A stretch of DNA of 41,478 bases from a virus, in IMG/VR virus record IMGVR_UViG_3300046780_000177, positions 1 through 41,478 of that record; one strand, given 5' to 3'. Positions 463 to 15,807 of this stretch are shown here, one piece after another. Made by a program: the position numbers and the translations under genes. The notes beneath the pieces are model-generated. The model did no database searches. It had not been told where the DNA came from and saw only the letters and a program-made list of their open reading frames with translations. Positions within the stretch are counted from its first letter, which is position 1; each line of letters starts with the position of its first letter.

Positions 463-2837
463 TGCCGGCGCAAATTCCGGGCATTGGCGAAGACGTCTCG
501 CATCTCATGGACGCGCCGGGCGTCGGCGAGGACGTCTCGCATCTGATGGGCGGTAACGCTGTGTCGGCGGAAGATTTCACCCCGAAAGCGCCGGAGGGCT
601 CGGCGGTCGGTCGGTTCCTGTCGAATGCCGGCGAGGCGCTCAACCCCATTACGGCGCTCGAGGGCGTCGCGTCGGCGGTCGCGCATCCGATCGACACAGC
701 CAAAGGCATTATCGGATCGCAGGTGGGCGAGGCGGAGAAGGCGCTCGATCTCATCAAGCAGGGCCGGTACACCGAAGCGGCGGGCCACGGAGCCGCGGCG
801 CTCCTCCCGATTCTCGGGCCGGCGGCCGCGAAGGCCGGCGAACAGATCGCTTCCGGTGACATCGCGGGCGGCTTCGGCAAGACGGCCGGGCTCGTGGCAC
901 CGATGGCGGCGGGCGCAGTCGTGCCGTCTGAGGTCAAGGTACCGGGTCCGCTGGCACCGGCCGGCCAGGGTGTGGCGGACGCGGCCGCGCTCGCGGAGTC
1001 GAACGGCGTCCCGCTCGACGTCGCGACGGCCTCGGGCAATCGCTTCGCGAGGGCGGCGCAGCATCTCTCCGATCGGACGCTCGGCGGCGGCATGGTGGCT
1101 GATAAGGCGCTCGAGGCGCAAAAAGCCGGCCTCGCGACACTCGGCGAACAGCTCGCGGCGAAAGGGTACTCGGCTCCGGTCAGCGCGGAAGCGGCCGGCG
1201 AGGCGGTGCGGTCTGGCGTCCTGGGTCAGGTCAACGCCAACGCAGATCTCGCGAATACCGCGTACAGCGAGCTCCGTAAAATCGAGGCGGATCCGGCGAA
1301 TTTGCGCGAGATCACGCCGGAAGCTGCGGCGCCGAATCCGGATGCGCCAATGCGGTTCTCGTTCAAGCCGCGGCCAACACAGGACGACGTGTTCTCGGGC
1401 GTATTGAAAGACGCGAAGGCGAACGGCTACCGCGGCACGGTCGAGGATCTGCGCGATGCGTTCGATCAGCGGGTCGCGTCGGCGAAGGATCTGAAGGCGT
1501 CGTCGGCGGAAGGCGCGGAGTACTCCCCGTCTGAATTGCTGTCGTCTATCCGCGAGCTCGGCGGGATCCGGTCGTTCGATAAGGATCTCCAACCCGGCAC
1601 GACAGCAACAAAGCTGAGCGGCGAGTACGACAACCTGAAAAGCCTCTACCGCAATCGTGGCGTGTTCACCGAAGGCGGCAAGCCGATCGATCAGATCGTC
1701 GACGAGCTCCGGCAGGATCCGCGGTGGAAAACCGTATTAACGGACAACCCCGAAGATCTGAAATCGGTGCTCGAGGAAATCCATTCCTCGCCAGAGAAGG
1801 GGCCGACGGATCTCGAGCACTACCTCCGCGGCGCGGGCGTGCAGCCGGGTACGCAGTGGTGGCAGCAGGGCGCGAAGCCGATGCAGGTCGCGTTGCCGGT
1901 CGATCTCCGGCCGGCACAGCAGGCGCTCAAGCCGCTATACGACGAATTGAGCCGGCAGCGGGATCTTGCGCCGGCCTCGATCATTGGCGACAAGGCAACG
2001 GCGCTCCAGGCGCTCGACAAGATCGTGAACGGTCCTACGCATGCGTCGCTCTCGACGGTCGACGCGGTGCTGTCGGATCTCAAGCGGTTCGCGCGCGGCG
2101 GGAAAGCCGGCGAGGTACCAGCGCTCGCGACACCCGGCCAGGCTGCGGCGAAGCAGGCGATCACGAATCTTGACGGTCTAGTACAGCGGACAGCGGCTGA
2201 AGCGGGTCCGGACGCGATCGACGCGTTGAAAATGGGCCGCTCGGCGACGGTCGCGAAGTATCAGGCGGCGGACGTGCTCGACGGGCTCAACGCGGAGCCG
2301 GCGCGGACGCTCAAGAGTCTAATCGGTGACGGGAACCTGGCGAAGCTGCGATCGGTCGCGGATCAGGCGCCGGATGTGCTCCCGCAAGTCGGGCGCGCGC
2401 ATCTCGATAACCTGCTCGCGATGGAGCCTGATAAGGCGTTCGCGGAGTGGAAGAAAACCGGCACGGCGACAAAGCAGATTCTTTACCAGGATCCCGGCTA
2501 CGTGAAGGATCTGTCTGACTTCTTCAACCTGCGAAAGATGGCCGGGAGCAATCCCAACCCCAGCGGGACGGCGCACACGGTTGCGACGATGGGCCAGGCC
2601 GGCCTCATGGTGTCGGCGCCATGGATCGGCGTGCCGTTACAGGTCGGCACGGCGGCGCTGTCGAAGCTGCTGCACTCCGATGCGGGCGTGCGGCTGTTGA
2701 CGCGCGGGCTCAAGATTCCGATCGGCAATAAGGCCGCAGGCGCGGCATGGGTGGCGGATCTCTCGGCGGCTACCAACCCCAGCGGATCCCAAACCCAAAC
2801 CACAGCACCAGGGCAACCAGCGTTAGCGGCAAGGTAA
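462..2837 (+). CDS. Large ejection/internal virion protein (P22 gp16 position)
   Basis: The ATG at 462 overlaps the TAA of the preceding gene (TAATG), giving 791 residues; a GTG at 444 in the same frame is less likely. The N-terminus carries a tandem octapeptide GEDVSHLM about 12 residues apart. It is followed by Ala/Gly-rich helical segments (roughly residues 50-160), a long charged middle, and a hydrophobic stretch near the C-terminus around GLMVSAPWIGVPLQ that could insert into a membrane. There is no lysozyme or peptidase motif that I recognise. It is the third of three consecutive genes in the slot of P22 gp7, gp20 and gp16, which leave the virion with the DNA and form a conduit through the envelope. 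The role as an ejection protein is inferred from this synteny. The last ~68 bp are overlapped on the other strand by a small membrane-protein ORF. Confidence 0.7.
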   Translation: MPAQIPGIGEDVSHLMDAPGVGEDVSHLMGGNAVSAEDFTPKAPEGSAVGRFLSNAGEALNPITALEGVASAVAHPIDTAKGIIGSQVGEAEKALDLIKQGRYTEAAGHGAAALLPILGPAAAKAGEQIASGDIAGGFGKTAGLVAPMAAGAVVPSEVKVPGPLAPAGQGVADAAALAESNGVPLDVATASGNRFARAAQHLSDRTLGGGMVADKALEAQKAGLATLGEQLAAKGYSAPVSAEAAGEAVRSGVLGQVNANADLANTAYSELRKIEADPANLREITPEAAAPNPDAPMRFSFKPRPTQDDVFSGVLKDAKANGYRGTVEDLRDAFDQRVASAKDLKASSAEGAEYSPSELLSSIRELGGIRSFDKDLQPGTTATKLSGEYDNLKSLYRNRGVFTEGGKPIDQIVDELRQDPRWKTVLTDNPEDLKSVLEEIHSSPEKGPTDLEHYLRGAGVQPGTQWWQQGAKPMQVALPVDLRPAQQALKPLYDELSRQRDLAPASIIGDKATALQALDKIVNGPTHASLSTVDAVLSDLKRFARGGKAGEVPALATPGQAAAKQAITNLDGLVQRTAAEAGPDAIDALKMGRSATVAKYQAADVLDGLNAEPARTLKSLIGDGNLAKLRSVADQAPDVLPQVGRAHLDNLLAMEPDKAFAEWKKTGTATKQILYQDPGYVKDLSDFFNLRKMAGSNPNPSGTAHTVATMGQAGLMVSAPWIGVPLQVGTAALSKLLHSDAGVRLLTRGLKIPIGNKAAGAAWVADLSAATNPSGSQTQTTAPGQPALAAR

Positions 2838-2949
2838 CGAGACAGATCAGGGCCAGGATCAGCCGGTAGAGCGAAAAATACCCGCTGATCACGTTCGCGG
2901 GCCACTCGAGAAACACACGGCGCAGCATGCCGGGCGGAGTATAACACAT
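2770..2949 (-). CDS. Small membrane protein, antisense (59 aa)
   Basis: This minus-strand ORF runs from ATG (2949-2947) to TAG (2772-2770). It starts MCYTPPGMLRRVFLEW and continues with one long hydrophobic segment of about 22 residues rich in Leu, Val, Ile and Ala, ending in a Trp/Gly tail (FGFGIRWGW). It fills the otherwise unexplained 110-bp gap between two + genes and overlaps the 3' end of the upstream gene by 68 bp. Its start codon shares the palindrome CATG with the forward gene that begins at 2948. There is no clear Shine-Dalgarno sequence; an internal ATG at 2928 is an alternative start. A holin, antiholin or superinfection-exclusion peptide are all possible. The long hydrophobic run is the main support. 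Confidence 0.45.
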   Translation of the reverse strand: MCYTPPGMLRRVFLEWPANVISGYFSLYRLILALICLVTLPLTLVALVLWFGFGIRWGW

Positions 2950-3748
2950 GTCACAGGGGTATTGCCTTCCCGCGATTCGCTATCGAGCGTTTACGGCCAA
3001 TGGTGCAGTTGCGGCCGGGTACAAGCTGTACGCCTTCATTTCCGGCACGATCACGCCACAGAACACGTACACCGATGGCACGCTGAGCACGCCAAACGCA
3101 AACCCGGTCGTTCTTGACGCAAACGGCGAGGCAGAGATTTTCCTTCCGCCGGATCTGGTCTATACGTTCAAACTGAAAGACGCGTCGGACGCCCAGCAGT
3201 GGAGCGTTGACGGCGTGGTGGCGACAACCTCGCCGACGGCTGGCGCAGCAGGCACGACGGTGCCGACGGGCAATATTTCGATGTACGGCGGTGCCTCGGC
3301 TCCGGCGGGGTATCTGCTGTGCGACGGCTCGGCGGTCAGTCGCGGCACGTTCGCGGCGCTCTTTGCGGTCGTGGCGTCGACGTTCGGGGCCGGCGACGGC
3401 GTGACAACCTTCAACCTGCCGGATCTGCGACAGCGGTTCCCGATGGGGAAAGCGGCATCGGGTACGGGTAACGTCCTGGGCGCGACGGGCGGCGCGGTCG
3501 ATCACACGCACACGGGACCGTCTCATACCCATACGGTCACGGTCACGCGCGACGGCTGGGGGAAAACCCTCAATGCGCCGTCTGCGGACGGGCGCCTAAA
3601 TACCGGCGCGGCCGCGGGCGCGGGCCAATTCTCCTCGAGCTATCAGCCGACGGCGGATCTCACAGTAACGTCGGGCGCTGACGGAACAGAAGCCACGGGC
3701 ACGGCAAATCCGCCGTTTCAGACGGTCAATTTCATTATCAAGACATAA
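2948..3748 (+). CDS. Tail fibre/tail-collar domain protein
   Basis: 266 residues; the ATG has a GGAG 8 nt upstream. Residues ~1-95 form a domain seen at the start of many phage fibres (start SQGYCLP, then YTDGTLSTPNANPVVLDANG). Residues ~105-165 match the phage tail-collar family (Pfam PF07484): GNISMYGG, PAGYLLCDG, GDGVTTFNLPDLRQRFPMG. After this come histidine pairs (DHTHTGPSHTHTV), which in such fibres bind metal along the trimer axis, and a C-terminal FQTVNFIIKT ending typical of collar proteins. The protein should be a trimeric receptor-binding or fibre component on the virion. It closes the structural module, directly before the lysis genes. Which receptor it binds cannot be told. Confidence 0.85.
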   Translation: MSQGYCLPAIRYRAFTANGAVAAGYKLYAFISGTITPQNTYTDGTLSTPNANPVVLDANGEAEIFLPPDLVYTFKLKDASDAQQWSVDGVVATTSPTAGAAGTTVPTGNISMYGGASAPAGYLLCDGSAVSRGTFAALFAVVASTFGAGDGVTTFNLPDLRQRFPMGKAASGTGNVLGATGGAVDHTHTGPSHTHTVTVTRDGWGKTLNAPSADGRLNTGAAAGAGQFSSSYQPTADLTVTSGADGTEATGTANPPFQTVNFIIKT

Positions 3749-3877: not shown

Positions 3878-4165
3878 ATGGATCAAACGGCGGTCGTGAC
3901 AGCAGGTGTTTTCGTGGTCGGCGGCGTCATGGCGGCCGCGGGATGGGTGCTCCAACTCTCGGGGCGCGTATCCCATCACAAGGCCGAAGCGGAGCTCGGG
4001 ATCACGAAAGTATCCGCCCGGATCGAGGCGGTCGCAGCCTCGGCGGAGCTCGCGGCAACACGGGCACACGGCCGCATGGATGTCGTCGAGACGCGTCAGA
4101 CCAACATGGAAGGCGATCTCAAGGAAATCAAGGCGGACGTTAAGACGCTCCTGGGGCGTATATGA
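3878..4165 (+). CDS. Membrane-anchored coiled-coil protein, candidate holin/lysis protein
   Basis: 95 residues from ATG 3878 (MDQTAVVTAG). The in-frame region upstream, from 3788, contains the promoter elements, so I do not count it as coding. Residues ~5-30 form one hydrophobic segment rich in Val, Gly and Ala, followed by a long charged helix with heptad character (ISARIEA..., ending EGDLKEIKADVKTLLGRI). A single N-terminal membrane segment plus a coiled coil is a common form for small proteins of phage lysis cassettes. The next gene overlaps by ATGA and looks like a muralytic enzyme. It could be a holin-like, Rz-like or unrelated anchor protein; the sequence alone does not decide. Confidence 0.55.
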   Translation: MDQTAVVTAGVFVVGGVMAAAGWVLQLSGRVSHHKAEAELGITKVSARIEAVAASAELAATRAHGRMDVVETRQTNMEGDLKEIKADVKTLLGRI

Positions 4166-4509
4166 CGATTGCGCCTGACGTCAAGTTAGTTGCCGTGCGC
4201 TGGGGATTGCCGCCGGAATGGGTCCAGGCGGTGGTACTCGCGGAAGGCGACGGGCACGCGTTCGTCAGGGCCGTACAGTGCTCGGTTCCCACCGTCCAGA
4301 ACCGGGCGCAGGCGCTCGAGGTGCTGTGCCGGTCATTGACGCATCGGTCAGCGGATTGGGCGGCAACGGCCGGCCTCTCCGAAGGGCTCTCGGCGTTCTG
4401 GTCGTACTTTGCGTCGAAGTGGTGCCCGGTCGGCGCGGACAACGATCCGCATGGCCTCAACGCAAACTGGCTCCCGAACGTGCGGAAGCTGCTCGGGCTC
4501 TCCGCATGA
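4162..4509 (+). CDS. Small lysozyme/transglycosylase-like protein, candidate endolysin
   Basis: 115 residues; the ATG overlaps the stop of the membrane protein before it (ATGA). The start AVRWGLPPEWVQAVVLAEG has the helix and glutamate placement often seen at the active site of lytic transglycosylase-like folds. The C-terminal part (FASKWCPVGADNDPHGLNANWLPNV) resembles conserved endings of short phage cell-wall proteins that I recognise only by style. It is short for a full lysozyme domain and has no signal peptide. The position right after a TM/coiled-coil protein suggests a lysis cassette. The enzymatic role is a guess from context plus weak resemblance. Confidence 0.42.
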   Translation: MTIAPDVKLVAVRWGLPPEWVQAVVLAEGDGHAFVRAVQCSVPTVQNRAQALEVLCRSLTHRSADWAATAGLSEGLSAFWSYFASKWCPVGADNDPHGLNANWLPNVRKLLGLSA

Positions 4510-4823
4510 GAACCGTAGTCGTTGACGGGGTGGAATTCGACATCGTATGGGACGGGCACAAAGACGGGCCGTCCCTGCTCCCTGACGATTACCCGGCCAC
4601 GGACGGCCGCGTCCCGTGTGGCTTCGTCGACGGGCCGTCGTCGGGGCCATTCGAGGATGACGCGGCGCTGTACGGCTACGTGGTGCCGGGTCTGCGTGAG
4701 CCGTCGTACGCGGTCTGTGCGGAGTGCGGTCAGCGCTTTACGCCGAACCGTCCCGGCCGGCAGTACTGCACGCGTCTCTGCCGGGATGCGGCTCGCCGGC
4801 AAACCCGCAAAGAGGTGGCGTGA
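4506..4823 (+). CDS. Zinc-ribbon protein of unknown function
   Basis: 105 residues; the ATG overlaps the previous stop (ATGA). The N-terminal 70 residues are acidic and unrecognised. The C-terminus carries a clear zinc-binding signature, CAECG, then QYCTRLCR, that is C-x2-C-x12-C-x3-C, followed by a basic tail (RDAARRQTRKEVA). Such ribbons bind nucleic acid or protein. Four-base overlaps on both sides place it in the same transcript as the lysis-type genes. Confidence 0.68.
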   Translation: MRTVVVDGVEFDIVWDGHKDGPSLLPDDYPATDGRVPCGFVDGPSSGPFEDDAALYGYVVPGLREPSYAVCAECGQRFTPNRPGRQYCTRLCRDAARRQTRKEVA

Positions 4824-12277: not shown

Positions 12278-12468
12278 GCTACGCGGCGCAGTACTGCGGC
12301 AAGGTCACGCATGCGTCGAAGGACATCGCGGAGGGGCATCTGCTCTTGTTGCGGCATGCCGGCAAGTCTCGCGAGCGGGAAACCGGCCGGCCGTTGCACG
12401 TCTATTACTGCGAGGTGTGCGCCGGCTATCACGTCGGACACGATCGGCGCGCGGACGAAGCCGCCTAG
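12274..12468 (+). CDS. Small zinc-finger-like protein (64 aa)
   Basis: GTG 12274 overlaps the preceding TGA. An N-terminal AAQYCGKVTH and C-terminal YYCEVCAGYHVGHDR give Cys/Cys-x2-Cys plus His ligands, which fits a small zinc finger. Phages often encode such proteins in early operons, with unknown roles in DNA metabolism. Confidence 0.58.
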   Translation: MSYAAQYCGKVTHASKDIAEGHLLLLRHAGKSRERETGRPLHVYYCEVCAGYHVGHDRRADEAA

Positions 12469-12476
12469 GTGCGCGC

Positions 12477-13679
12477 GTGATCTATTACAACGAGATCGAT
12501 CGGAAGGCGGCGTCGTGGCTGCGCGAACTGATGCGCGCGGGTGTGATTCCCGCGGGGGATGTGGATGAGCGATCAATTACCGATGTTCGGCCCGGAGATT
12601 TGCGCGGATACCGATCCTGTCACTTCTTCGCCGGCATCGGCGGATGGGCGTACGCCTTGCGGCTCGCCGGCTGGCCCGACGATCAGCCCGTCTGGACCGG
12701 ATCTTGTCCATGTCAACCGTTCTCGTCGGCCGGTAAACAGCGCGGCAACACGGACGAGCGGCACCTCTGGCCTGTCTTTCGAGGACTCATCGCCGAGTGC
12801 GCGCCTGCAATCGTCTTTGGTGAACAGGTTGCGAGTCGTCTTGGCCGGGACTGGCTCGCCACTGTTCGATCTGACTTGGAAGGATTGGCCTATGCAGTCG
12901 GGGCCGCCGATCTGTGCGCTGCGGGCGTCGGCGCGCCGCACATCAGGCAGCGATTGTACTGGGTGGCAAACGCCAGTGGTGAACGACGCGACAGGATCGG
13001 ATTACGCGTACGGCCCGAAACGGCCGGCCGGCGCGCGGGCGATCTTTCTCAAGCTCCCCGGCGAGGCGAAGCTCGCGAGCTGGCCGACACCTTGCGCGCA
13101 TCCTGCGAACGGGGAACCGGAGGCGTTTCTCGAGCGGAAGCGCCGATCGGTGGCGCGCGGATCGTCAATAGGGATCTCGCTGACGGATCTTCAAATGGTC
13201 GCGAAGCTGGCGACGTGGGCGACACCTTCGGCGCGGGACTGGAAAGACTCGCCGGGGATGGCTACAACCGGGATCAATCCGGACGGCTCGGCGCGGTCGC
13301 GGCTGGATCAGTTGCCGCGGCAGGCGGGGCTGGCCGGGTGGCCGACACCGGACAAGAGCAGCGGCGACGGTGGGAGATCGAGCGCGGATCCGCTTGCGCG
13401 ACTCAGGGCGAGCGGGACGAAAAAGCAATTCACGATCAACGAAGCGGCGGCGTTGACTGGCGAGACTGCGACTGGATCCCATGCGCCGACGGGAAAGCGC
13501 GGCCAGTTGAACCCGGCTCTTTCCCGCTGGCTTATGGGGTACCCGCCCGTGTGGGACGACTGCGCGGTTATGGCAATGCCATCGTCCCAGAACTCGCGGC
13601 GACCTTCATCGTCGCGGCCGAAAGCTGCCTAGCGGCAGACAAAAGTGTGAGCATTGCGCGAAAACAAGACATAGTTTAG
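12477..13679 (+). CDS. C5-cytosine-specific DNA methyltransferase
   Basis: 400 residues from GTG 12477. Motif I is CHFFAGIGGWAYALRLAG (48-65, SAM binding), motif IV is TGSCPCQPFSSAGKQ with catalytic Cys79, the motif VI position reads FGEQV, motif VIII is RQRLYWVA, and motif X near the end is LRGYGNAIVPELAATFI. A long Arg/Gly/Ala-rich middle holds the target-recognition region. It would methylate C5 of cytosine in a specific site, likely to evade host restriction; the site is unknown. Residues ~30-385 are also read in another frame by the gene at 12565, which constrains this unusual middle composition. Confidence 0.88.
   Translation: MIYYNEIDRKAASWLRELMRAGVIPAGDVDERSITDVRPGDLRGYRSCHFFAGIGGWAYALRLAGWPDDQPVWTGSCPCQPFSSAGKQRGNTDERHLWPVFRGLIAECAPAIVFGEQVASRLGRDWLATVRSDLEGLAYAVGAADLCAAGVGAPHIRQRLYWVANASGERRDRIGLRVRPETAGRRAGDLSQAPRRGEARELADTLRASCERGTGGVSRAEAPIGGARIVNRDLADGSSNGREAGDVGDTFGAGLERLAGDGYNRDQSGRLGAVAAGSVAAAGGAGRVADTGQEQRRRWEIERGSACATQGERDEKAIHDQRSGGVDWRDCDWIPCADGKARPVEPGSFPLAYGVPARVGRLRGYGNAIVPELAATFIVAAESCLAADKSVSIARKQDIV
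12565..13632 (+). CDS. Long gene nested in another frame of the methyltransferase gene
   Basis: 355 residues from ATG 12565, with GGGGG six bases upstream; an ATG at 12559 is also possible. It lies wholly inside the C5 methyltransferase gene, shifted by one base. Residues near the start (MSDQLPMFGPE), GPTISPSGPDL, LFDLTWKDWPM, ICALRASARRTS, repeated [GSA]W-x-TP blocks (GWQTPVVND, SWPTPCA, TWATPSARDW, GWPTPDK) and SRWLMGYPPVWDDCA match a phage protein family that I recognise as recurring next to or overlapping C5 methyltransferases. No biochemical function is known to me. Two recognisable proteins from the same ~1,070 bp make this strong dual coding. Confidence 0.72.
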   Translation: MSDQLPMFGPEICADTDPVTSSPASADGRTPCGSPAGPTISPSGPDLVHVNRSRRPVNSAATRTSGTSGLSFEDSSPSARLQSSLVNRLRVVLAGTGSPLFDLTWKDWPMQSGPPICALRASARRTSGSDCTGWQTPVVNDATGSDYAYGPKRPAGARAIFLKLPGEAKLASWPTPCAHPANGEPEAFLERKRRSVARGSSIGISLTDLQMVAKLATWATPSARDWKDSPGMATTGINPDGSARSRLDQLPRQAGLAGWPTPDKSSGDGGRSSADPLARLRASGTKKQFTINEAAALTGETATGSHAPTGKRGQLNPALSRWLMGYPPVWDDCAVMAMPSSQNSRRPSSSRPKAA

Positions 13680-14332: not shown

Positions 14333-15139
14333 ATGAGAGAAGAACAGCAGTCAGAAGAAACGAAAGCGGCGCCATTGCTCGGCGCATCAGAGCTCGGCGG
14401 GCTCAACGCGATGGCTGCGGCGGACGCAGAAATTAACGCGCGATGGGCGATCGCCTCGCGGAAGCTCGAGGCCGCGGCGAAGGCCGCGAAGGCGCTCGTG
14501 GTGCCGGCCGTCTACGGTGCGATCGCCGCCGTGATTGCGGATCTCTCCAAGGTCGGGATCGCGAAGGATCGCGAAAACAAGAGTCAGGGCGCGGGGTTCA
14601 AGTTCCGCGGGATCGACGACGTGTACAACGCGCTGTCGGCGCTCCTCGCAAAGCATGGCCTTGTGGTGTTGCCGCGGATGCTGACGCGGGCGATCACGGA
14701 GCGGGAAAGCCGCAATGGCGGCGTGCTCTTTACCGTGGTGGTCGAGGCTGAATTCGATTTCGTCTCGGCGCTCGACGGCTCGCGGCATACCGTCCGGACG
14801 TTCGGCGAGGCGATGGACTCCGGCGACAAAGCCACGAACAAGGCCATGAGCGCGGCGTACAAGTACGCGGCGTTTCAAGCGTTCTGCATTCCGACGGAAG
14901 GCGATAACGACGCAGACGCCACGACGCACGAGGTTGCACCGTCGCTGCCGGCGGCGTTTCCGGCCTGGTGGAAGCTGATGCAGGCGACGGCGGCAAAAGG
15001 GACAAAGGCGCTCGAGGACGCGTGGAAGGTGTCAAGTCCGGAGTTCCGCCGGATCGTGTCGCGGCAGTACGCGAAGGACTGGGCGGATCTGAAGCAGGCT
15101 GCCGGCCAGGTCAAGGTCGACGCAGAGGCCGCGGCGTGA
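14333..15139 (+). CDS. erf: ERF-family single-strand annealing protein
   Basis: 268 residues with a GAAAGGGG ribosome site upstream. After an Ala-rich N-terminus the ERF core is clear: VYGAIAAVIADLSKVGIAK, FKFRGIDDVYNALSALLAKH, VLPRML, and FGEAMDSGDKATNKAMSAAYKY with the conserved GEAxDxGDKATxKA motif. The C-terminus ends in a helical tail. ERF proteins anneal complementary single strands and can circularise terminally redundant P22-type DNA. The next gene is a YqaJ exonuclease overlapping by GTGA, so the two form a SynExo-type recombination pair. Confidence 0.9.
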   Translation: MREEQQSEETKAAPLLGASELGGLNAMAAADAEINARWAIASRKLEAAAKAAKALVVPAVYGAIAAVIADLSKVGIAKDRENKSQGAGFKFRGIDDVYNALSALLAKHGLVVLPRMLTRAITERESRNGGVLFTVVVEAEFDFVSALDGSRHTVRTFGEAMDSGDKATNKAMSAAYKYAAFQAFCIPTEGDNDADATTHEVAPSLPAAFPAWWKLMQATAAKGTKALEDAWKVSSPEFRRIVSRQYAKDWADLKQAAGQVKVDAEAAA

Positions 15140-15807
15140 CGTTCACGATCATCAACGCGGAGCAACGCTCCCCGGAATGGTTCGCGGCGCGGGCCGGTCG
15201 GCTGACTGGCTCGCGGGCTGCGGACATGCTCGCGACGATCAAGAGCGGCGAGGCGGCCGGCCGTCGCAATCTGCGGGCACAGCTGGTGCTCGAGCGCGTC
15301 ACGGGCAAACCGCAAGAACAGACATTCGAATCAGCAGCGATGCGGCAGGGCGCGGAGCGCGAAGCGGCGGCGCTCGATCGGCTCGAGGCGGAGCTCGGTT
15401 ACATCCTGACGCGCACGGGGTTTCTGGCGGCTGATGGCCTGATGGCGGGCTGTTCGCTTGACGGGCACGTCGGGAATTTTGAGCGCATCGTCGAGGCGAA
15501 GGCGCCCCTTGCGGCGACACACCTCGAGTACCTCAAAAGCGGCAAGGTGCCGGGCGAATACCTGAAGCAGATCACGCACAACCTTTGGATCTCCGGCGCG
15601 CAGGCGTGCGACTGGCTTTCCTACAATCCGGATTTTCCTGAGCATCTGCAAACCAAGATCGTCGAGGTCGCGCGCGACGAAGCGGCGATCGCGGCGTACG
15701 ACACGGCGGCGCGGGCGTTTCTCGCGGAGGTTGATCGCGAGCTCGAGGCGCTACGGACACTGACGGATTTCGGCCGCGTGCTTAATGCGGCGAAGGGAGC
15801 GGCGTAA
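15136..15807 (+). CDS. YqaJ/lambda-exonuclease-like viral recombinase nuclease
   Basis: 223 residues from GTG 15136. Motifs in order: QRSPEWFAARAGRLTGS, the conserved MRQGAEREAAALDR, LMAGCSLDGHVG (metal-binding Asp), VEAKAP (E-x-K of the PD-(D/E)XK site) and QITHNLWISGAQ. This is the YqaJ family, which resects 5' strands of double-strand ends. It supplies single strands for the ERF protein encoded just upstream and coupled to it. The catalytic set D...E-x-K is intact. Confidence 0.9.
   Translation: MTFTIINAEQRSPEWFAARAGRLTGSRAADMLATIKSGEAAGRRNLRAQLVLERVTGKPQEQTFESAAMRQGAEREAAALDRLEAELGYILTRTGFLAADGLMAGCSLDGHVGNFERIVEAKAPLAATHLEYLKSGKVPGEYLKQITHNLWISGAQACDWLSYNPDFPEHLQTKIVEVARDEAAIAAYDTAARAFLAEVDRELEALRTLTDFGRVLNAAKGAA

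Follow-up and report, generated by a model that had tools for sequence, protein, structure and literature searches.

In a phage gene for a C5 cytosine DNA methyltransferase, a second reading frame of 355 codons lies hidden, and computation shows it to be a conserved, selected coding frame across phages with a conserved start zone. We propose that the two frames encode the two subunits of one split C5 methyltransferase, a reading to which we give a probability of roughly 0.6 and which is inferred, without expression, binding or activity data. The window, i.e. the whole stretch of DNA analysed, is a virus record of 41,478 bases that holds phage genes for structural proteins, recombination and replication. 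The features on which the argument rests are as follows:

12477..13679, + strand: outer frame, C5 cytosine DNA methyltransferase, proposed large ('alpha') polypeptide with motifs I-VIII and X (PF00145, phrog_363, AF2, Foldseek)
12549..12567, + strand: nested start zone, purine-rich GGGGGA followed by ATG 12559/12565 (sequence, enrichment among homologues)
12565..13632, + strand: nested gene, proposed small ('beta') subunit, 355 aa (phrog_1008, tblastn, constraint and openness tests)
12618..12644, + strand: motif I, CHFFAGIGG, outer frame (sequence)
12708..12725, + strand: motif IV, PCQPFS, with the catalytic Cys, outer frame (sequence and homologue invariance)
12793..12933, + strand: nested residues 79-125, predicted helix-strand-strand core over outer motifs VI-VIII (AF2 pLDDT 80-90; both frames constrained)
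12816..12833, + strand: motif VI region, FGEQVA, with the catalytic Glu, outer frame (sequence and homologue invariance)
12930..12953, + strand: motif VIII, GAPHIRQR, outer frame (sequence)
12964..13350, + strand: nested W-x-TP array, variable region (sequence; codon-position dominance of the nested frame)
13002..13451, + strand: outer residues 196-345, mostly predicted disordered (AF2 pLDDT mostly 30-60)
13507..13554, + strand: nested LNPALSRWLMGYPPVW, C5 methyltransferase motif IX (hhalign profile match)
13566..13598, + strand: motif X, GYGNAIVPELA, outer frame (sequence, AF2)

A mechanical call of the outer ORF runs from 12417 to 13679 and opens at GTG 12417; by inspection, the true start of the methyltransferase is likely to be GTG 12477, immediately 5' of the conserved YYNEID. 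This frame matches PF00145 (E 4.8e-14, above the cut-off) and phrog_363 (E 1.5e-76), fulfils the motif criteria for a C5 methyltransferase, with motifs I, IV (PCQ), VI (Glu), VIII and X present, and keeps residues P98, C99, Q100, E136, R177 and R179 invariant in 55 homologues. The nested ORF lies wholly inside it, in the +1 frame relative to the methyltransferase ORF; an alternative start at ATG 12559 would give a product of 357 aa (12559-13632). Its match is phrog_1008 (E 1.1e-28), and no match was found in Pfam, NCBIfam or PDB sequences. The array consists of the units WQTP (12964), WPTP (13081), WATP (13216) and WPTP (13339), three of which coincide with LADT/VGDT/VADT in the outer frame.

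When searched with tblastn, the nested product matched 213 of 50,697 phage records, and in the first annotated records to be looked at (epsilon15, BcepC6B and RcPeripeteia) the match fell in the +1 frame of the annotated methyltransferase. Two scans of viral contigs and one of bacterial genomes, together with these first phage records, yielded 245 loci, in which profiles for both frames placed the nested match in +1 of an overlapping methyltransferase match in 257 of 263 pairings; of the remaining six, one lay in +2 (a frameshifted prophage) and five were stretches that no separate methyltransferase match overlapped. Openness of the frame was also assessed by a scan blind to it, with homologues picked by N-terminal methyltransferase sequence: the overlap was stop-free in 66/77 for +1 against 0/77 for +2, and those exceptions that were inspected had either an HNH insertion or a stop at the margin of the nested reading. 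Under synonymous codon shuffling within each gene a stop-free nested frame is expected in 6.6 of 133 homologues and was found in 112; taken by itself, the window departs only modestly from expectation (p = 0.016 for an open +1). As a control, 20 generic C5 methyltransferases from bacterial genomes contained no such ORF (0/20). A distant methyltransferase class, from environmental phage contigs, repeats the arrangement: among 82 long cases, 75 have no more than one stop in the outer frame, as against 0 of 82 for the third frame. Most records inspected annotate just one of the two frames, Escherichia phage K1ind2 and Xanthomonas phage PhiXhv-28 both, and no description of overlapping phage methyltransferase genes was found in the literature searched.

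Selection along the overlap can be followed by codon position, since in this frame relation a change at an outer third position is a change at a nested second position. The ratio of third- to first-position differences, taken over 74 independent homologue pairs, was 2.65 upstream of the nested gene and fell to 1.97 across motifs I-VIII and to 0.63 (0.56-0.70) over the variable array; it then rose to 0.88 over the motif IX zone, which precedes motif X, and to 1.54 past the nested stop. Within the variable region the third position is the most conserved of the three in the outer codons, and the nested frame is therefore the dominant coding frame there. In a finer profile (78 pairs) the ratio is about 3.4 at motif I, where the nested product is unconstrained; nested constraint then rises from motif IV to motif VIII (about 2.1 to 0.83), the nested frame dominates the array (0.63-0.71), and the outer frame regains dominance at motif X (2.25). 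The distant class gave 2.80, 1.97, 0.49, 0.46 and 2.91 for the same regions in the same order. Purifying selection on both frames across homologues, judged from the codon-position ratios by region, is thus seen in two classes. The profile rules out a passive ORF and tells which frame matters in which region; a chance or codon-bias ORF is likewise rejected by the blind scan, the codon shuffling and these ratios taken together. That the overlapping nested gene exists as a real coding frame is nearly certain.

The initial annotation, made from the sequence alone, had claimed a 355-codon gene nested in another frame of the methyltransferase, with both frames coding. Both claims held: the ORF is that of 12565-13632 in +1, and the constraint and openness tests indicate two real coding frames. 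It had also placed the nested family beside phage methyltransferases, where the family was right and the position wrong, for it overlies the methyltransferase in +1. The observation that it named as a refutation, homologues in which the nested frame is routinely broken by stops, was not encountered: HNH insertions aside, no intact methyltransferase frame was found over a nested core broken by a stop.

The nested start falls within the outer codons for DERSIxDV. A GGAG-like Shine-Dalgarno sequence (SD) precedes it in 78 of 168 loci, against a mean of 27.9 (maximum 45) under synonymous resampling of each gene's codons, and the start zone holds an ATG in 165 of the 168. Codon choice points the same way: the rare Arg codon AGG makes up 28% in the start zone versus 7% elsewhere, and the Asp codon that forms the ATG is GAT in 135 of 157 cases versus 40% elsewhere. 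Across homologues the nested gene therefore meets the criterion of an initiation signal of its own; the window itself has a partial SD only (GGGGGA). The nested N-terminus in the window reads SDQLPMF (12565-12585), and QLx[LMI]F-like sequences occur in some loci. Such a sequence resembles the pentapeptide that binds the sliding clamp. A beta-clamp motif at this N-terminus was nevertheless rejected, the pattern being present in merely 12 of 131 loci.

The evidence that ties the nested frame to the enzyme comes from motif IX. When the profile of the nested family was set against 23 generic C5 enzymes, the best local match was motif IX, LNPALSRWLMGYPPVW, the counterpart of which in one generic C5 enzyme is RKLSPRECARVQGFPD. 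The hhalign score was 25 versus at most 16.6 in column shuffles (0 of 100 as good); spanning only 22 columns, with E about 0.02 for a single comparison, the match is short and of moderate strength. The nested consensus is LNPxxxxWLMGxP. Motif IX-like sequence occurs in 211 of 266 nested products versus 3 of 298 outer frames, all three of them frameshifted chimeras, and none of the 298 distinct outer-frame sequences has a canonical motif IX. Motif IX is thus located, as computation shows, in the nested and not in the outer frame, and for lack of a canonical motif IX we therefore regard the outer frame as one chain of a split C5 enzyme rather than a complete monomer. The outer RPVEPGSFPLAYGVP aligns weakly at the expected position, and the outer chain may possibly retain a degenerate motif IX there.

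Structure prediction and profiles agree on the outer frame, which resembles generic C5 enzymes over motifs I-VIII (hhalign E 2e-18) with an additional match at motif X. In its AF2 model motifs I-VIII and X are folded (pLDDT about 90), and the sequence between them, the outer frame's version of the variable region, is predicted to be mostly disordered; Foldseek groups the model with M.HhaI. The nested model is poorer (mean pLDDT 60): the array is unresolved and not confidently folded, residues 79-125 are the best-folded part, and there is a C-terminal helical stretch at 319-338. Foldseek gave the nested model no PDB match below E 0.5 and, in a viral library, just four matches at E < 0.001, the named ones being a phage methyltransferase entry and an uncharacterized phage protein. 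The number of W-x-TP units varies from 0 to 9 among loci. From its position, variability and frame dominance we infer that the array is likely to be the target-recognition part, without support from a fold.

Natural variants bear on the relation between the two frames. In one locus (L089) a second nested copy at 3986-4699 is intact while its former outer frame has 17 stops; the same copy is seen in L250 at 2501-3214. This was the only free-standing member of the nested family that our scans for such members found, and because an intact pair lies beside it, it does not decide between the possible readings. An in-frame TGA interrupts the outer frame in L151/L172 (identical in the stretch shown) and in L011, with the nested frame intact; the converse, an intact outer frame over a nested core broken by stops, was not seen among complete loci, HNH insertions aside. 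In about eight loci (L105, L109, L112/113, L185, L202, L221 and L231) indels within the overlap have given rise to chimeras with exchanged tails, which probably reflect decay of the copy or a sequencing error.

G-runs of 7 to 13 occur just past motif VIII in a few loci (L221 near 4445, L231 near 4443, L043 near 3378 and L325 near 2394). In L221 and L231 the frames are shifted at the run, joining halves of both reading frames, which makes the run a possible site of slippage or phase variation. As a general explanation both were rejected, the runs being present in few loci and unconserved.

In the proposed split enzyme, the large subunit would come from the outer frame and carry motifs I-VIII, for SAM binding and catalysis, together with motif X at its C-terminus. 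An internal translation start, one frame over, would give the small subunit, composed in order of a seemingly unconstrained N-terminus, a folded helix-strand-strand element, the variable W-x-TP array and motif IX. The two chains would assemble, the small one bringing motif IX and, by inference, the sequence-recognition region. Production of both proteins, their mutual binding, their joint need for methylation and the setting of specificity by the array are all inferred. The window enzyme adjoins phage recombination genes and no restriction enzyme was found beside it; it therefore probably protects the phage genome. Three further points of the initial annotation can be judged here. The overlap was said to cover the target-recognition part, but it extends far beyond that part: the nested frame starts before motif I and also spans the catalytic motifs. 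The Arg/Gly/Ala-rich composition of the outer frame was suspected to be a by-product, and this is supported: codon-position data and the predicted disorder of residues 196-345 make it likely that the outer chain merely tolerates this stretch as a by-product of the nested array. Finally, among the roles offered for the nested product (to regulate, inhibit or assist), 'assist' is favoured, more exactly as a missing subunit, because the nested C-terminus matches the motif IX that the outer frame lacks.

As to history, we infer that an ancestral single-frame enzyme may have undergone indels that moved the segment with recognition region and motif IX into +1. The nested array and motif IX would then be old sequence and the outer copy newly read, as would be the unconstrained nested N-terminus over motif I. 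A bolder reading is that of a widespread ancient class of phage C5 enzymes in which a +1 gene, overlapping in full, carries the recognition domain and motif IX. Selection would alternate along the gene between the outer frame (catalytic domain, motif X) and the nested frame (recognition, motif IX), and each W-x-TP unit would be a recognition module gained or lost in both frames at once; we hold this to be somewhat less likely than not. If it were true, most annotated phage genomes would miss a subunit required for activity.

Split C5 enzymes are known. In M.EcoHK31I (YGGCCR) the larger subunit holds motifs I-VIII and X and the predicted recognition domain, and the smaller polypeptide motif IX only (PMC3404938); reportedly, the gene for the large subunit encodes the small one as well, in a different frame (Lee et al. 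1995). The division of motifs is the same here, both in the large and in the small chain, a likeness drawn by analogy and without sequence comparison. However, EcoHK31I is listed as a restriction-modification system (PMC6456624), whereas the present enzyme is phage-borne and apparently solitary; and the recognition domain of M.EcoHK31I is predicted in the large subunit, whereas here constraint places the variable W-x-TP region mainly in the nested frame. M.AquI (CYCGRG) is likewise a single C5 enzyme in two chains, split between motifs VIII and IX (PMC3404938); it differs in having motif X in the small subunit (here in the outer frame) and a variable region shared between the chains, and the genes described here overlap almost completely. 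PHROG 1008 and the 'Mte8-like' ORFs, as in Escherichia phage K1ind2, belong to the same nested family and go under the labels 'DNA methyltransferase' and 'Mte8-like', without any role being given; the latter label we take to be a possible reflection of a database entry of the EcoHK31I system. The nested family was present in 23 of 295 Enterobacteriaceae species genomes, and six enterobacterial neighbourhoods inspected were prophage-like with no obvious restriction partner. A relative in a restriction system (possibly EcoHK31I or EaeI) was accordingly not retained as a candidate, none being found in a plasmid search or in those six neighbourhoods, whose contexts are phage-like.

Among the alternatives, the one that survives best is that the nested gene is real and encodes a separate protein (a regulator, inhibitor or anti-restriction factor) which is no part of the enzyme. 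This remains possible. It is supported by the tandem nested copy that is intact although its outer frame is dead (L089/L250), by the intact nested frames opposite an in-frame TGA (L151/L172, L011) and by a nested model without an enzyme-like fold. Against it, the nested family is never seen apart from a methyltransferase, and a separate protein would not predict a nested C-terminus matching the very motif IX that the outer frame lacks. Less plausible, and in our opinion unlikely, is a single polypeptide made by two programmed frameshifts, from outer to nested past motif VIII and back before motif X, which would restore the conventional order I-VIII-TRD-IX-X. Frame dominance does switch from outer to nested to outer in that order, and natural indels past motif VIII join the halves in L109, L185 and L231; the internal ATG with SD enrichment, the nested constraint already present upstream of motif VIII, over motifs IV-VIII (ratios 1.5 to 0.83), and the scarcity and lack of conservation of G-runs at the junction speak against it. 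That the nested frame is not translated and merely follows from codon bias or from the sequence of the outer protein is all but excluded: W-x-TP is indeed the +1 reading of LADT-like repeats, the window by itself reaches just p=0.016 and the nested N-terminal part over motif I is unconstrained, but the codon-position pattern is inverted in two distant classes, stops are avoided across many homologues, the SD is enriched and one nested copy outlived the loss of its outer frame (L089).

Long, fully overlapping genes with demonstrable selection on both frames are rare, and the present pair occurs in hundreds of phages and prophages, the laboratory phages N15 and epsilon15 among them. Should the nested product be required, as the split-enzyme reading holds, cloning a phage C5 methyltransferase from its annotated frame only, or recoding it for expression, would yield an enzyme without activity or with the wrong specificity, and a methylome prediction that considers a single frame would omit the part that decides specificity. 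The pair would also offer a tractable case of split-enzyme evolution within one stretch of DNA.

Several further observations concern the architecture of these loci. In the nested frame of L110 (2953-4460) and L117 (1001-2420), and also of L111, L118 and L120, HNH-endonuclease-like insertions lie where motifs IX and X join; the outer methyltransferase frame remains open through them, and they add a new nested stop. In L034 (2925-3909) motif X follows motif IX within the nested frame as the result of an indel; this M.AquI-like order is seen in a single contig and may be an error. In the window, just downstream of the methyltransferase, the ORF of an ERF-type annealing protein (14333-15139) overlaps that of a YqaJ-type exonuclease (14968-15807).
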